From Streptosporangiaceae bacterium (GTDB lineage: Bacteria > Actinomycetota > Actinomycetes > Streptosporangiales > Streptosporangiaceae): a stretch of DNA of 6,978 bases. The translations under genes and the position numbers were made by a program. Positions 2,188-6,978 of the stretch are shown one piece after another. Position 1 is the first letter of the stretch. Every line of letters starts with the position of its first letter. A model generated the notes under the pieces. It did no database searches and was not told where the DNA came from. It saw only the letters and a program-made list of their open reading frames with translations. The stretch is from assembly GCA_030050125.1 (NCBI GenBank), contig JASIJN010000425.1, forward strand, positions 1-6,978, written 5' to 3'.

Positions 2188-2826
2188 GTGGCGGTGATCA
2201 AGGGCAAGGGCCAGTCGGCGGGGGTGCGCGGCGAGGCGGCCCGCAGCCGGACGAGCATCTCCCGCGCCGACGAGCAGGGCCTGCTGTTCGGTGAGGAGCT
2301 GAGCGGGACGCCCGAAGACCTCGGCTACCGGGGCCCGACCGCCTGCACCGCGGCCGGGATCACCTACCGTCAGCTGGACTACTGGGCCAGGACCGGGCTG
2401 GTCGAGCCGAGCGTGCGCCCGGCCAGCGGCTCCGGGTCGCAGCGGCTCTATGGATTCAGGGACATCCTGGCGCTCAAGATCGTGAAGCGGCTGCTGGACA
2501 CCGGCATCTCGCTGCAGCAGATCAGGACCGCGGTCGGCTACCTGCGCGAGCACGGGGCCAGCGACCTGGCCCAGGTCACGCTGATGAGCGACGGCGTGAC
2601 CGTCTACGCGTGCACGTCGCCGGACGAGGTGGTGGACCTGCTGCAGGGCGGCCAGGGCGTGTTCGGCATCGCGCTGGGCCGCGTCTGGCAGGAGGTCGAG
2701 GGCACCCTGGCCGACCTCCCGTCGGAACGGGCCGAGGACGCGGGGACGGCGGCGCCGGATGAGGAGGGCGCCGCGAGACCGGGACCGGACGAACTGGCCC
2801 GCCGCCGGGCGCGCAAGACCGGCTAG
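2188..2826 (+). CDS. MerR-family regulator, Rv1830 type
   Basis: 212-residue DNA-binding protein homologous to M. tuberculosis Rv1830 (called McdR in mycobacteria and tied to cell division). A variable N-terminus (1-45, with DEQGLLFGEEL at 28-38) precedes the MerR helix-turn-helix: GYRGPTACTAAGITYRQLDY (46-65), ARTGLVEPSV (67-76), GSGSQRLYGFRDILALKIV (81-99), then LLDTGISLQQIRTAVGYL (102-119). The C-terminal part carries the conserved VVDLLQGGQGVFGIAL (148-163), followed by an acidic/Pro-rich tail and a basic end (RRRARK, 205-210). Start choice: GGAGG (2178-2182) is 5 nt before GTG 2188; GTG 2182 overlaps that site and is unlikely. Its TAG stop (2824-2826) overlaps the stop of the convergent tetR gene in the tetranucleotide CTAG. 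Confidence 0.88.
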   Translation: MAVIKGKGQSAGVRGEAARSRTSISRADEQGLLFGEELSGTPEDLGYRGPTACTAAGITYRQLDYWARTGLVEPSVRPASGSGSQRLYGFRDILALKIVKRLLDTGISLQQIRTAVGYLREHGASDLAQVTLMSDGVTVYACTSPDEVVDLLQGGQGVFGIALGRVWQEVEGTLADLPSERAEDAGTAAPDEEGAARPGPDELARRRARKTG

Positions 2827-3599
2827 CCGGCCGCGGACCGCGCCGCGGTCTGCCCGTTCTCGGCCCGCCCCGTCTCGGCCTGCTCCCTCTCGGCCTGCGC
2901 CGCCCTGGCCTCCGCCGCCTCGGCCTGGACCCCGGCCATGAACAGGTCGATCCCGAACCGGTAGTGGAACTCCTGGTCGTCGGGGCCGCAGGCCGTCATC
3001 GGGCCCGCGGCCTCGACCAGGCGCGGGTACCGGCTCGGCGGCAGCATGGCCAGCCGGACCTGGTTGCGGCGCTGCACCTCGGCCCGTTCGCCCTGGCTGA
3101 GCCCGGAATCGTAGTCCGGCGCGCTCATCACCAGCATGAGGCCGGTCCACAGCCCGTTGCGCGCGATCTCGCTCGCGTGCACGGGATCGAATCCGGCCCG
3201 CCGCAGCACGTCGAGAGCGGTCTCGGTAACGCGGAGCGCGGCCTCGCTGTGCAGCTTCTCGCTCGGGACCAGGACCTGGGACGCGCACCGGTGCGTTCGC
3301 AGCACCCGCACCAGCGACTCGATCAGGCCGCGCAGCTGCCGCGGCCAGTCCGCGGCCGGGTCGACGTCGGCGTCGATCTCGCCCCAGAGCCGCTCGGCCA
3401 GGCCGCCGAGCAGGGCCTCTTTGCTGCGGAAATGCCAGTAGAACGCCATCGGGGTGACGCTCAGCTCGTTGGCCAGCCGCCTGATCGTCAGTGCCTCGAG
3501 CCCGTCCGCGTCGGCGATGGCCAGCGCCTGGTCGACCACCGTCTCCTTGCTCAGCCGGGGGCGTTCGGGGTCGCCGTCGCTTGCCTGTGTGGATGCCAT
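2823..3599 (-). CDS. TetR-family repressor of the divergent MFS pump
   Basis: 258-residue repressor, expected to bind the shared intergenic region and release it when a small ligand binds. Seen: N-terminal helix-turn-helix (about 19-64), with ALTIRRLANELSVTPMAFYW at 36-55 and HFRSKEALL at 56-64; then an all-helical ligand/dimer domain of the TetR_C_1 (PF02909) kind, ending in FHYRFGIDLFMAGVQA (211-226). The last 35 residues (224-258) are a charged Ala/Gln/Glu-rich tail with repeated QAE-like units, beyond the usual end of the fold. The ATG at 3599 is preferred over one at 3638, which would place the start inside the regulatory region; GTG at 3602 is an equal possibility. No ribosome site is visible, and a -10 box sits 10 bp away, so the mRNA is probably leaderless. 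The ligand cannot be predicted. Confidence 0.87.
   Translation of the reverse strand: MASTQASDGDPERPRLSKETVVDQALAIADADGLEALTIRRLANELSVTPMAFYWHFRSKEALLGGLAERLWGEIDADVDPAADWPRQLRGLIESLVRVLRTHRCASQVLVPSEKLHSEAALRVTETALDVLRRAGFDPVHASEIARNGLWTGLMLVMSAPDYDSGLSQGERAEVQRRNQVRLAMLPPSRYPRLVEAAGPMTACGPDDQEFHYRFGIDLFMAGVQAEAAEARAAQAEREQAETGRAENGQTAARSAAG
2834..2852 (+). terminator. Hairpin after the MerR gene, inside the tetR 3' end
   Basis: An 8-bp stem (2834-2841 with 2845-2852, one G-T pair) closes a 3-nt loop 7 nt after the MerR stop. It lies wholly within the codons for the last residues of the convergent TetR protein. A second palindrome, CCGGCTAGCCGG (2819-2830), spans both stop codons. With no intergenic space, these are the only candidates for ending the MerR transcript. 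No T-tract is present. Confidence 0.35.
2847..2931. repeat. Imperfect CTCGGCCTG-like repeats encoding the TetR tail
   Basis: Copies of CTCGGCC recur between 2859 and 2927, spaced irregularly. On the minus strand they encode the QAE/ARA-rich C-terminal tail of the TetR protein. This looks like slippage expansion of a GC-rich coding end rather than a separate element. Confidence 0.4.
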
Positions 3600-3608
3600 C
3601 ACTTGACA

Positions 3609-3638
3609 ACTATACGCCGTACAAGGCACGATGCTCAA
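3609..3638 (-). promoter_or_regulatory. tetR promoter, probably leaderless
   Basis: On the minus strand TTGAGC (3638-3633), 18 bp and TATAGT (3614-3609) make a good sigma-A-type promoter. Transcription would begin at about 3602, on the GTG/ATG pair that starts tetR, leaving no leader. The isolated operator-like copy at 3611-3623 overlaps the -10 box and spacer, so autorepression is likely. Confidence 0.5.
3611..3623. promoter_or_regulatory. Isolated operator-like site, TATAC-GCC-GTACA
   Basis: A near-perfect inverted repeat of 5-3-5 geometry (arms TATAC and GTACA, of the form TRTAC/GTAYA). It has the same layout as the unit at 3642-3654 (TGTAC-AAC-GTATA). It overlaps the tetR promoter. Centre-to-centre distance to the first unit of the tandem array is 31 bp, about three helical turns. 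Confidence 0.55.
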
Positions 3639-3641
3639 GGA

Positions 3642-3669
3642 TGTACAACGTATAGGAGCGACGTATAGG
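3642..3669 (+). promoter_or_regulatory. Candidate promoter of the MFS pump, inside the repeat array
   Basis: TGTACA (3642-3647), 16 bp and TATAGG (3664-3669) form a weak sigma-A-like pair whose start would be near 3676, about 40 nt before the ATG. A perfect TTGACA at 3603-3608 is an alternative -35, but the hexamer 18 bp further (CACGAT, 3627-3632) is poor. Either way the promoter or leader lies under the 13-bp repeats, consistent with repression. Confidence 0.35.
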
Positions 3670-3693
3670 TACGCCGTATGGGAACGACGTACA
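3642..3693. repeat. Four contiguous 13-bp repeats in the tetR/MFS divergent region
   Basis: Four head-to-tail 13-bp units occupy 3642-3654, 3655-3667, 3668-3680 and 3681-3693. Each has the frame xxxxC-(A/G)(A/C)C-GTAYR, with centres at 3648, 3661, 3674 and 3687, exactly 13 bp apart. The first unit is a near-perfect inverted repeat (TGTAC-AAC-GTATA); the third is weaker (GGTAC-GCC-GTATG); the second and fourth keep the right arm (GTATA, GTACA) but have degenerate left arms. The right arm is the most conserved part. Probable binding array for the TetR protein, covering the MFS promoter and leader. Confidence 0.6.
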
Positions 3694-3715
3694 TGACGAC
3701 TCTGAGGAGAGCCAG

Positions 3716-5167
3716 ATGTCCAGACGCTGGTGGAGCCTGGTGGCCGTTGGGCTCGCCACCTTCATGACCTATCTCGACAACAACGTGACCAACGTCGCGA
3801 TCCCCACCATCCAGCGCAGCCTGCACCTGTCGATCGCGGGCCTGGAGTGGGTGGTCAGCAGCTACATCCTGGTCTTTGCCGCGCTGCTGCTGGTCGGGGG
3901 CAGGCTGGCCGACGTGTTCGGGCGGCGCCGGCTGTTCCTCATCGGGCTGACGATCTTCACCGCCGCCTCGCTGGGCGCCGGGCTGGCCGGCAGCGGCGCC
4001 GTCCTGATCGGGATGCGGCTGGTCCAGGGCCTGGGCGCCGCGCTGCTGGTGCCGACCACGCTGGCGATCATCGTGGCCACCTTCCACGACGCCAGGGAAC
4101 GGACCACCGCCGTCGGGGTGTGGACCGCGATCGGCGCGATGGCGCTGGCGTTCGGGCCCCTGATCGGCGGGCTGATCAGCCAGCACCTGCACTGGGGCTG
4201 GATCTTCTTCATCAACGTGCCGGTCGGCGCGATCACGTTCGCCATCGCGCTGCTCGCGGTCGGGGAGTCGCGGGACGCCTCGGCGACCCGCCATCTGGAC
4301 GTGCCCGGCCTGACCGCGTCGGTCGTCGCGCTGTTCTCGCTGGTCTACGCGCTGATCGAGGGCCACGACAAGGGCTGGACCTCGGGCCTGATCCTCGGCG
4401 CGTTCGCGCTGGCCGCCCTGGCGGGCGCGGTGTTCATGCTGATCGAGGTCCGCTCGGCGCGGCCGATGATCCCGCTCGGGCTGCTGCGCTCCCGGGTGTT
4501 CGGCGGCGGCACCGGCACCATGATGCTGTGGGCGTTCGGGATCTTCGGTATCTACTTCTTCACCTCGATCTACCTGCAAGACGTGCTCGGGTTCTCGCCG
4601 ACCATGGCCGGGCTGGCGTTCCTGCCCATGGCGCTGTGCATGGCGCTGTTCGCCGGGCTCGCCGGGCCGCTGGCCGCGCGGGCCGGGGCGCACCGGGTGG
4701 TCGCGCTCGGGCTGGTGCTCGAGGCGATCGGCCTGTACCTGTTCTGGCGGCTGGGCGCGGGCGCGACGTTCGCCAGCCTCATGCCGGGCTTCCTTTTCTT
4801 CGGCGCCGGGTCGGGGCTGATGAACGTGCCGCTGACCACCGCGGTGCTCGCAAGCATGCCGCAGGAGCGCTCCGGCATCGCCTCGGCCCTGCTGAACAAC
4901 TCGCGGGAGGTCGCCGGGCTGCTCGGCATCACGGTGATCGGCGCCGTGCTGCGGTCCGCCCAGGGCGCCGAGCTCCGGCGGGGGGATAGCCCGGGGCTGG
5001 CGTTCATCGACGGCTACCACACGGGGCTGGTCGTCACGATCGCGCTGGTCGCGGTCGGCGTGGTCGTCAGCTACGTGACGCTGCGCCGCGCCCGCCCGGT
5101 CGATGACAACCCGGTCCCGGTTCCCGTCGCCGAGATCCGCCCCGCGCCCGTCCGGCTCCGCGGCTAG
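3716..5167 (+). CDS. MFS drug:H+ antiporter, DHA2 / EmrB-QacA type
   Basis: 483-residue inner-membrane exporter of the 14-helix DHA2 family, which uses the proton gradient to expel drugs or other amphipathic compounds. Motifs in order: motif D1 LDNNVTNVAIPTI (20-32, with the acidic Asp21 of helix 1), motif A GGRLADVFGRRR (61-72) in the loop between helices 2 and 3, motif B RLVQGLGAA (101-109), antiporter motif C AFGPLIGG (145-152) followed by WGWIFFINVPVG (160-171), and the DHA2 C-half signature GSGLMNVPLTTAVLAS (365-380) with ERSGIASALLNNSREVAG (384-401). Hydrophobic segments continue to about 455, followed by a short Pro/Val-rich cytoplasmic tail. Length is typical (about 450-520). The start is well supported: AGGAGA (3705-3710) lies 5 nt before the ATG. 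It is divergent from tetR and probably induced by the pump's substrate. The substrate cannot be read from sequence. Confidence 0.9.
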   Translation: MSRRWWSLVAVGLATFMTYLDNNVTNVAIPTIQRSLHLSIAGLEWVVSSYILVFAALLLVGGRLADVFGRRRLFLIGLTIFTAASLGAGLAGSGAVLIGMRLVQGLGAALLVPTTLAIIVATFHDARERTTAVGVWTAIGAMALAFGPLIGGLISQHLHWGWIFFINVPVGAITFAIALLAVGESRDASATRHLDVPGLTASVVALFSLVYALIEGHDKGWTSGLILGAFALAALAGAVFMLIEVRSARPMIPLGLLRSRVFGGGTGTMMLWAFGIFGIYFFTSIYLQDVLGFSPTMAGLAFLPMALCMALFAGLAGPLAARAGAHRVVALGLVLEAIGLYLFWRLGAGATFASLMPGFLFFGAGSGLMNVPLTTAVLASMPQERSGIASALLNNSREVAGLLGITVIGAVLRSAQGAELRRGDSPGLAFIDGYHTGLVVTIALVAVGVVVSYVTLRRARPVDDNPVPVPVAEIRPAPVRLRG

Positions 5168-5178
5168 GCATGATCGAG

Positions 5179-6102
5179 TTAGCGGGGAGGATTCTCAGTT
5201 CTATTCACTGAGAATCCTCCCCGCTCATGGATTGGGGTCGTGGCGTCGGCCGGGTACGCGGGCGGGTAGGGCTCGGCGTAGTCGGCCGACCGGCTGACGT
5301 TCTCCCAGGCGGTCGCCTCGGCCAGCTGCCGCCTCGAGTACCTCAGCGCCATCTCGACCGCGGTCACTCCCAGCAGCAGATGCGAGGGCGGGTTATCGCG
5401 CTTGACGGTGGTCACGATGATCTCGGCGGCGCGCGCCGGGTCGCCTGCGGGACCGGCAGGGCTGCGGCGCATCATCCGGTCCATCGCCCCGATCGTGGCG
5501 TCGTAGTCGGCGGGAATCTCGCGCACCGTCATGGAGGAACCGGCCCAGTCGGTCGCGAAGCCGCTGGGCTCTACGACGATGACCTTGACGCCGAACGGCG
5601 CGGTCTCGGCCGCGAGCACGCGGCTGAAACCGTCGACCGCGAACTTGGCGGCCTGATAGCTGGCAATGCCCGGCGAGCCGCCCACCCGCCCGCCGACCGA
5701 GGAGAACTGCACGATGGTGCCGCCGCCCTGCTCCCGCAGGTGCGGGATCGCCGCTGTGGATACGTGGTACACGCCCCAGAAGTTGGTCTCGAACTGGGCG
5801 CGGAAATCAGCCTCGTCGCCGGTCTCGATGGGCGCCACGTTCGCGTACCCGGCGTTGTTCACAACGACGTCCAGCCGGCCGAAGCGTCCGATACCCGCCG
5901 CGACGGCGGCGCGCGCCGCCTCCGCGTCGGTGACGTCGAGGGCGAGCGGCAGCACGCTGTCGCCGTACCGCTCCGCGATCTCGCCGAGCTGTCCGGGCTG
6001 GCGCGCCGTGGCGACGACGCGGTCACCAGCGTCGAGGGCGGCGCGGACGAGGGCGCGTCCGAAGCCGCGGGACGAACCGGTGATGAACCAGGTCTGCCTC
6101 AT
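5179..6102 (-). CDS. Classical short-chain dehydrogenase/reductase (SDR)
   Basis: 307-residue NAD(P)-dependent oxidoreductase with a Rossmann fold. Seen: cofactor motif TGSSRGFG (8-15), an Arg after the second strand (VVATAR, 29-34) that favours NADP(H), LDV (55-57), NNAG (82-85), and the catalytic set Asn107, Ser135 (FSSVGG), Tyr149 and Lys153 (YQAAK). A PSGFATDW motif (179-186) follows, then a substrate-cap region and a C-terminal extension. It resembles the 17beta-HSD-like classical SDR subgroup (cd05374); the substrate is unknown. The ATG at 6102 is chosen because MRQTWFITG begins the fold at once; the open frame continues to 6345 but that part would cover the gcvP leader and riboswitch. 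Only a weak GAAG precedes the ATG. The last 13 or so residues (GGFSVNRTENPPR) come from the terminator palindrome and use AT-rich codons (AGA, AAT, ACT) unlike the rest, so the true ancestral C-terminus was probably shorter. Confidence 0.87.
   Translation of the reverse strand: MRQTWFITGSSRGFGRALVRAALDAGDRVVATARQPGQLGEIAERYGDSVLPLALDVTDAEAARAAVAAGIGRFGRLDVVVNNAGYANVAPIETGDEADFRAQFETNFWGVYHVSTAAIPHLREQGGGTIVQFSSVGGRVGGSPGIASYQAAKFAVDGFSRVLAAETAPFGVKVIVVEPSGFATDWAGSSMTVREIPADYDATIGAMDRMMRRSPAGPAGDPARAAEIIVTTVKRDNPPSHLLLGVTAVEMALRYSRRQLAEATAWENVSRSADYAEPYPPAYPADATTPIHERGGFSVNRTENPPR
5181..5225. terminator. Perfect 19-bp palindrome, bidirectional terminator between MFS and SDR
   Basis: The arms 5181-5199 and 5207-5225 are exactly complementary over 19 bp around a 7-nt loop (5200-5206, TCTATTC). 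It begins 14 nt after the MFS stop and has no T-tract on either side, as is usual for actinobacterial I-shaped terminators. It serves the two convergent genes. On the minus strand it is also coding: it contains the last 14 or so codons of the SDR gene, which stops at 5181-5179, exactly at the palindrome's edge. Confidence 0.85.
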
Positions 6103-6146: not shown

Positions 6147-6158
6147 GCGCTGATGACA

Positions 6159-6262
6159 CCGCCCGGGAGAGTCCCCGCGCAGCCAGCGGCGGGGCGCCGA
6201 AGGGGCAACATCCCCGGAACCTCTCAGGCATCAGGGACCGGGCGGGACAAGCGGCTCTGGAC
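6159..6262 (+). promoter_or_regulatory. Glycine riboswitch (single aptamer) upstream of gcvP
   Basis: Matches the glycine aptamer (Rfam RF00504) in order: P1 CCGCCC (6159-6164) pairing with GGGCGG (6240-6245); the conserved GGGAGAG (6165-6171); a stem CCCCGC/GCGGGG (6173-6178 with 6189-6194); the invariant GCCGAAGGGGCAA (6196-6208), whose GGGG (6202-6205) pairs with CCCC (6212-6215); CTCTCAGGCA (6221-6230) pairing with the first GAGAG; and AGGGACCG (6233-6240). Downstream, CGGCTCTGGA (6252-6261) resembles the ghost-aptamer segment of single-aptamer switches. There is no second CGCCGAAGG core, so this is not the tandem form. Glycine aptamers before gcv genes normally turn expression on when glycine is high; the mechanism here (transcription or translation) is not obvious. 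Confidence 0.9.
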
Positions 6263-6343: not shown

Positions 6344-6978
6344 ATGAACTTCGCGCAGCGTCATATCGGGCCGTCCGAGGACGATCAGGCCCAGATGCTC
6401 AAGACCATCGGCTACGGCTCGCTGGACGAGCTCGTCTCGGCGGCGCTGCCCGGGGGCCTGGCCGCCGACCGCGAGCTGAGCCTGCCCGGGCCGCTGACCG
6501 AGGAGCAGGCCCAGGCCGAGCTGCGCCGGATGGCCGCCGGCAACCAGGTGCTGACCTCGATGATCGGCCTGGGCTACTACGGCACGGTGACGCCCGCGGT
6601 GATCCGCCGCAACCTGCTGGAGAACCCGGCCTGGTACACCGCGTACACGCCGTACCAGCCGGAGATCTCACAGGGCCGCCTCGAGGCGCTGCTCAACTTC
6701 CAGACCATGGTCGAGGACCTGACCGGGCTGCCGGTGGCGGGCGCGTCGATGCTGGACGAGGCGACCGCGGCGGCCGAGGCCATGACGCTGGCCCGGCGGG
6801 CGGCCGGGAAGGGCCGGGTGTTCCTGGCCGACGCGGACTGCCTGCCGCAGACCCTGGCCGTGCTGGCCACCCGGGCCGAGCCGCTCGGCATCGAGCTGGT
6901 CACCGGCGAGGTCACGCCCGGGCTGATCGCGGCGCAGCCGGACGGCGAGCTGTTCGGGGTGCTGCTGCCGTACCCGGG
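6344..6978 (+). CDS. gcvP: Glycine dehydrogenase (decarboxylating) P protein, 5' part
   Basis: First 211 codons of the PLP enzyme that decarboxylates glycine and passes the aminomethyl group to the lipoyl arm of GcvH (glycine cleavage system). Seen: RHIGP (6-10), [19 protein letters not shown] (72-90), [18 protein letters not shown] (94-111), [19 protein letters not shown] (112-130) and [14 protein letters not shown] (134-147), all hallmarks of the N-terminal P-protein domain. The frame is open to the window edge, where it is cut inside the conserved LPYPG segment; the PLP lysine of the usual 940-960-residue protein lies outside. The start is firm: GAGGAGG (6332-6338) is 5 nt before the ATG. 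Homolog of Rv1832 (gcvB) in the same neighbourhood. Expression is likely controlled by the glycine riboswitch in its leader. Confidence 0.95.

Follow-up and report, generated by a model that had tools for sequence, protein, structure and literature searches.

A 13-bp-phased row of Pip-type sites as the probable operator array of an actinobacterial TetR-family repressor

TetR-type repressors are common drug-sensing switches of actinobacteria and serve as parts of many synthetic gene circuits. In the Tn10-type TetR/tetO system, tetR and the efflux gene are divergent and the operators lie within overlapping promoters, as at the locus described here; however, the operator sequence is a different one and only two operators are present. 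QacR-type paired dimers provide a precedent for TetR-family dimers sharing a stretch of DNA, which resembles our proposal for the array described below, but the two QacR dimers occupy one overlapping site rather than a row of separate 13-bp sites. Pip of Streptomyces pristinaespiralis and S. coelicolor is, like the repressor studied here, a TetR_C_1 protein encoded beside an MFS efflux gene. According to PMC5743821, the Pip operator spans 11 bp, of which 3 bp separate two 4-bp palindromes, and several operators are distributed over the -35, the -10 and past the start. On that account, multi-operator TetR promoters built of the GTAC-N3-GTAC unit are already known from ptr/Pip. A plasmid with SCO4025 is named in PMC6585502. 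A narrow search of the open-access literature recognised neither a 13-bp TetR array nor dimers assembling on such a row, and the matches listed for the operator strings were apparently all unrelated papers.

The window, which is the whole 6,978-nt stretch of Streptosporangiaceae DNA analysed here, is actinobacterial and carries a TetR-family gene and an MFS gene that diverge from a 116-bp intergenic region (Table 1). The ATG form of the window TetR scores 47.7 bits against TetR_N (cut-off 24) and 37.8 bits against TetR_C_1 (cut-off 21) in Pfam. The MFS protein is assigned to the DHA2 efflux transporters by its score of 259.1 bits against TIGR00711, which is above the cut-off of 230.2. The repressor is not the tetracycline repressor TetR itself (NF010319), against which it reaches 73.1 bits compared with an NCBIfam cut-off of 265. 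Among the named relatives reached, the nearest are proteins of a Trebonia MAG (64% identity) and of Trebonia kvetii (59%), and its best match by sequence among solved structures is ActR of S. coelicolor (PDB 2opt; E 4.7e-18).

Table 1. Positions of the genes, sites and promoter elements at the TetR/MFS locus. Site scores are matches to the eight fixed bases of the consensus.
Feature	Position	Strand	Remarks
TetR repressor gene	2823-3602	-	TetR_N + TetR_C_1; GTG start at 3602 (probable, leaderless), alternative ATG at 3599
MFS -35 (predicted)	3603-3608	+	TTGACA; in 35/40 anchored loci, selected partly on that stretch
tetR -10	3609-3614	-	TATAGT; in 31/40 anchored loci, TAnnnT in 40/40
Outlier, putative core operator	3612-3622		ATACGCCGTAC, minus strand GTACGGCGTAT; 7/8
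MFS -10 (predicted)	3627-3632	+	CACGAT; spacer 18 bp
tetR -35 (predicted)	3633-3638	-	TTGAGC; TTGnnn at such spacing in only 6/40, hence weak
Array unit 1	3643-3653		GTACAACGTAT; 7/8
Array unit 2	3656-3666		GAGCGACGTAT; 5/8, left half degenerate, exact 13-bp phase
Array unit 3	3669-3679		GTACGCCGTAT; 7/8
Array unit 4	3682-3692		GAACGACGTAC; 7/8
MFS ribosome-binding site (likely)	3704-3710	+	GAGGAGA, read directly from the sequence
DHA2-type MFS efflux gene, EmrB subfamily	3716-5167	+	TIGR00711, PF07690; divergent from the TetR gene

Five 11-bp sites in the intergenic region share the form GTAC-N3-GTAY, four of them in an array with a pitch of exactly 13 bp and the fifth, the outlier, standing apart. 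Sites were scored by their matches to the eight fixed bases of GTACNNNGTAC, and those with at least 7/8 were considered good. The best 30-base self-match in the intergenic region is 24/30 at a lag of 13, a value reached by none of 5000 dinucleotide shuffles (lags 5 to 30). Five sites of at least 7/8 are found compared with a shuffle mean of 0.23, and 0/5000 shuffles attain five, although one of the five (at 3619) arises artificially by overlap with the outlier; elsewhere in the window, the single further site of this quality is at 5760. Tandem Repeats Finder independently calls the array (3648-3691, period 13, score 60). Chance is excluded as the origin of the array. The first-pass annotation had described four head-to-tail 13-bp units centred at 3648, 3661, 3674 and 3687 with a fifth related copy centred at 3617; the self-match, the shuffles and Tandem Repeats Finder confirm this description, and its coordinates match the 11-mers found here. 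Its further remark that the later units keep mainly the right half applies to unit 2, while units 3 and 4 retain both half-sites. What it had missed is the nature of the unit, for which an 11-bp GTAC-N3-GTAC site of Pip type is the best reading, and the existence of earlier multi-operator TetR promoters made of this unit. By the Pip-type operator definition in PMC5743821, the sites of the window are imperfect copies, four with 7/8 and one with 5/8.

The comparison with Pip started from a Pip sequence that has a 100% match over 97% to a database protein and a 93% match to the Streptomyces protein P0122; P0122 is thereby taken to be a Pip relative. Pip relatives were found in 34 of the 394 genomes searched; 30 of these loci were covered, and 20 regions upstream were compared. 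The 11-bp unit is common to both systems, with at least two GTAC-N3-GTAC sites present in 17/20 of these regions. Fewer than two good sites were found in the other 3/20, which may be misplaced because no MFS gene, or only part of one, was detected in those genomes. The spacing is different. Pip sites are separated by 20–25 bp, mostly 21 bp (12 regions) or 24 bp (5 regions), with pairs at 20, 22 or 25 bp in a few, whereas the window has a 13-bp array and 31 bp to the outlier; a 13-bp pair occurs in 0/20 regions upstream of the MFS genes of Pip relatives. A spacing of 21 bp is nevertheless shared, since it separates Pip sites in those 12 regions and the array from the outlier in 26/42 loci of the window's clade, by a loose distance rule that mis-set at least two rows (L005, given as 23 bp but 36 bp by good sites, and L049, 42 bp). 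The gene order also differs: the window TetR gene is divergent from the MFS gene, whereas Pip relatives lie behind the MFS gene in the same direction wherever an MFS match was found. Orthology of the window TetR with Pip is rejected, as it shares 29% identity with P0122 and the two fall into separate clades. In the TetR tree, which left out L011, L012, L013, L016 and L018 and contains long branches, the Pip-like proteins (five rows) and the window's clade (45 rows) form separate groups with support of 100/100 and 100/99, respectively. The array looks like a real and conserved variation on the multi-operator Pip-type TetR switch.

The 13-bp period, on whose conservation in relatives the first-pass annotation had staked its reading, recurs across the clade. 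The clade sample consists of 45 loci: the window and 2 loci from a first search, 29 from a search of 100 genomes (of which 44 gave 45 places at clade level, E ~1e-35 or better; the best 34 of 45 were read) and 13 from a search of 296 genomes (18 places at clade level, all 18 read). The pair count left out the duplicates L001, L002 and L050-L056 and also L003 and L007, and L015, L017, L019, L020 and L081 are absent from its rows, having no tblastn match. A pair of sites 13 bp apart is present in 44/45 clade loci compared with 2/21 loci of other TetR genes; with 20 mononucleotide shuffles of the region per locus, it arises in a fraction of 0.003. The one clade locus lacking the pair is L068. The pair is kept in 35/36 clade loci whose TetR is less than 50% identical to that of the window. 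The 13-bp array is a mark of the window's clade, though the 2/21 other loci also have a pair. A divergent MFS gene was detected in 39/45 clade loci and was not detected in six within the stretch examined.

In 20 clade genomes, all chosen as known carriers of the locus, which makes the figure likely, the doubled pattern is found at the TetR/MFS locus in 20/20. It occurs at just 10 other places, 8 of which belong to a different, palindromic family. A regulon of many arrays is not supported by these counts, and the TetR looks like a local regulator. Three of these loci, L085, L094 and L101, carry near 1507 ATACTGAGTATGCATACTCAGTAT or a near form, with two 11-mers 13 bp apart and a different core. 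This type of site is at a gene start in L085 and L101, as seen from the listed reading frames, and was read from flanking letters only in L094; the gene in L085 and L101 is, by appearance, presumably a PadR-type regulator.

The clade association, the near-confinement to the locus in 20 genomes and the fit to a Pip-type unit together provide good support for the assignment of the array to the adjacent TetR, which agrees with the first-pass annotation of a probable TetR operator array. The same evidence bears on the idea that a regulator other than the adjacent TetR reads the array. That idea draws on the fact that TetR binding to the array is deduced from sequence comparison, but the array accompanies the TetR clade, is rare at other TetR loci and is nearly confined to the TetR/MFS locus, and we regard another reader as very improbable.

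The recognition helix reads VTPMALYWHF or close forms in the window's clade and VTPMAFYWHF in the window; the helix pattern missed five clade rows, including the window, whose helix was read directly. Pairs of GTACTTAGTAC type accompany four other TetRs, whose helices are of the form VKPMxxYHH/HY, and no good site was found for five TetRs with a VEAMSLYxH helix. Across the TetRs read, the recognition helix seems to go with the site type, in loci that are few and related.

The units differ in number and quality among the clade loci. By a loose count in 42 loci, arrays of 3 units are the commonest (25 loci); 5 loci have 2 units, 11 have 4 to 6 and one has a single unit. In both Trebonia loci the 4+1 layout is retained, at a distance of 36 bp from array to outlier, and the Nonomuraea gerenzanensis locus has, by eye, the outlier and two units. 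When only sites of at least 7/8 are considered, a 13-bp pair is present in 39/45 loci and a pair at 12 or 14 bp in 0/45. Once sites of 6/8 are admitted, a 14-bp pair appears in 17/45 loci and a 12-bp pair in 3/45, which are mostly overlaps beside the outlier as read from the site lists. Such variation could mean that only the outlier, perhaps with one strong unit, is functional, and that the other units are decaying copies of a tandem duplication that are rarely bound. The degenerate unit 2, the unit number of 2 to 6 in 41/42 loci and the outlier-side half of the nearest unit, which is often GCAT or GGAT (mean 2.71/4 compared with 3.71 on the other side), are consistent with decay. However, the 13-bp pitch is exact even where TetRs share less than 50% identity, sites of at least 7/8 form no pair at 12 or 14 bp, and the second unit from the outlier keeps its phase and both halves (means 3.61 and 3.73 of 4, n=41), which is unexpected under plain decay. 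We consider decaying copies improbable, if the least improbable of the alternatives.

The outlier looks like the main operator, positioned in the core of two overlapping promoters, a role that the first-pass annotation had missed. It overlaps the tetR -10 and also sits between the predicted -35 and -10 of the MFS gene. A scan of 3560-3760 gives a single promoter-like match, TTGAGC-18-TATAGT. The counterpart of the outlier followed by a AGTTGTCAA-like stretch could be anchored in 40/45 clade loci, by a rule that itself requires part of AGTTGTCAA. An in-frame GTG of tetR begins exactly 6 nt past its -10, so tetR is probably leaderless; the six bases between the -10 and this start are TTGACA on the opposite strand. 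In 30/40 anchored loci, 20-25 bases separate the first base of the outlier from an in-frame start codon; the distance is 29-37 bases in 4, and no such codon was found in 6/40. For the MFS promoter, xAnnnT at a spacer of 18 is present in 9/9 rows of the window's subclade and in 4/31 others (13/40 in total), and the predicted MFS -10 appears convincing only in that subclade and weak outside. The same motif is commoner at a spacer of 13 (25/40 anchored loci), for which no promoter explanation fits.

On this reading, the array begins about 4 bases past the predicted MFS start (~3639) and would span the MFS leader. Palindromic units within a predicted leader could also act as RNA, as an attenuator or in a riboswitch-like manner. 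The fold of 3639-3720 is ordinary, however (z -1.10, with 26/200 shuffles as good), no Rfam family reaches its gathering score in the MFS leader, and Pip-type promoters contain the GTAC-N3-GTAC unit as well, at spacings other than 13 bp. An action as RNA is the least probable explanation that we weighed, with hardly any weight left to it.

Our preferred reading, to which we give a probability of roughly 80%, is that the TetR is autorepressing, that the outlier is the core operator which also represses the pump, and that the array is an accessory tandem platform. Each site would be an 11-bp GTAC-N3-GTAC dimer site for the adjacent TetR. A dimer on the outlier would obstruct both the -10 of tetR (TATAGT) and the spacer within the MFS promoter (TTGACA-18-CACGAT), so that this one event would shut both promoters, giving autoregulation together with repression. 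The four 13-bp-phased units are likely to take extra dimers, which would strengthen pump repression by a road-block or by cooperative occupancy, and a ligand, probably a substrate of the pump, would release the dimers. The sites, their conservation alongside the TetR clade and their placement over promoter-like elements are seen directly, whereas binding by the TetR, the points where transcription begins, the ligand and cooperation between dimers are what we infer from them.

At 10.5 bp per turn, adjacent 13-bp units differ by 86 degrees and alternate units by 171 degrees; dimers may occupy neighbouring units together or only every other one. A tentative and rather doubtful extension is that the array forms a track for side-by-side TetR dimers, each rotated by ~86 degrees along a right-handed spiral that covers ~257 degrees between units 1 and 4, and thereby makes the pump promoter respond in a sharp, switch-like way. 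The outlier and the nearest unit of the window are nearly in phase (31 bp, 343 degrees), and the common 21-bp layout is exactly in phase. The subclade relatives of the window have 33, 35 and 36 bp, which correspond to 51, 120 and 154 degrees, and the phase is not kept. Phase-locked looping between outlier and array is rejected as a general rule because these 33-36 bp layouts in close relatives fall out of phase. A strictly phased array of usually 2-5 Pip-type operators, present clade-wide and with its core site embedded in a pair of overlapping promoters, is a natural setting in which to ask how many dimers can fit into neighbouring grooves, and whether a switch owes its sharpness to the number and phase of its sites.

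Several arrangements of related sites were seen at other loci. Other TetR_C_1 genes (L075, L076, L077 and L080) have paired GTACTTAGTAC-type sites that are 13 bp (L077) or 21-23 bp apart. In L084 (Embleya sp., ~1870-1930), two GTACGCCGTAC sites, read by eye, lie upstream of a TetR gene whose product is 32% identical to that of the window, with no 13-bp row at these sites by eye. Upstream of a distant TetR in the Trebonia kvetii genome (L014), GTAC recurs every 7 bp to form overlapping 11-mers, an alternative packing of the half-site.

Elsewhere in the window, 196-2826 on the plus strand encodes in succession an FHA protein, a MerR regulator, a bifunctional nuclease domain and a second MerR, which looks like an ordinary actinobacterial cluster. 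A strong inverted repeat (AGCGGGGAGGATTCTCAG and its complement), found by eye at ~5180-5225 between the convergent MFS and SDR genes, is probably a bidirectional terminator. Further downstream, a glycine riboswitch aptamer (Rfam RF00504, 61.8 bits) at 6154-6250 on the plus strand precedes a glycine cleavage P-protein gene that starts at 6344.
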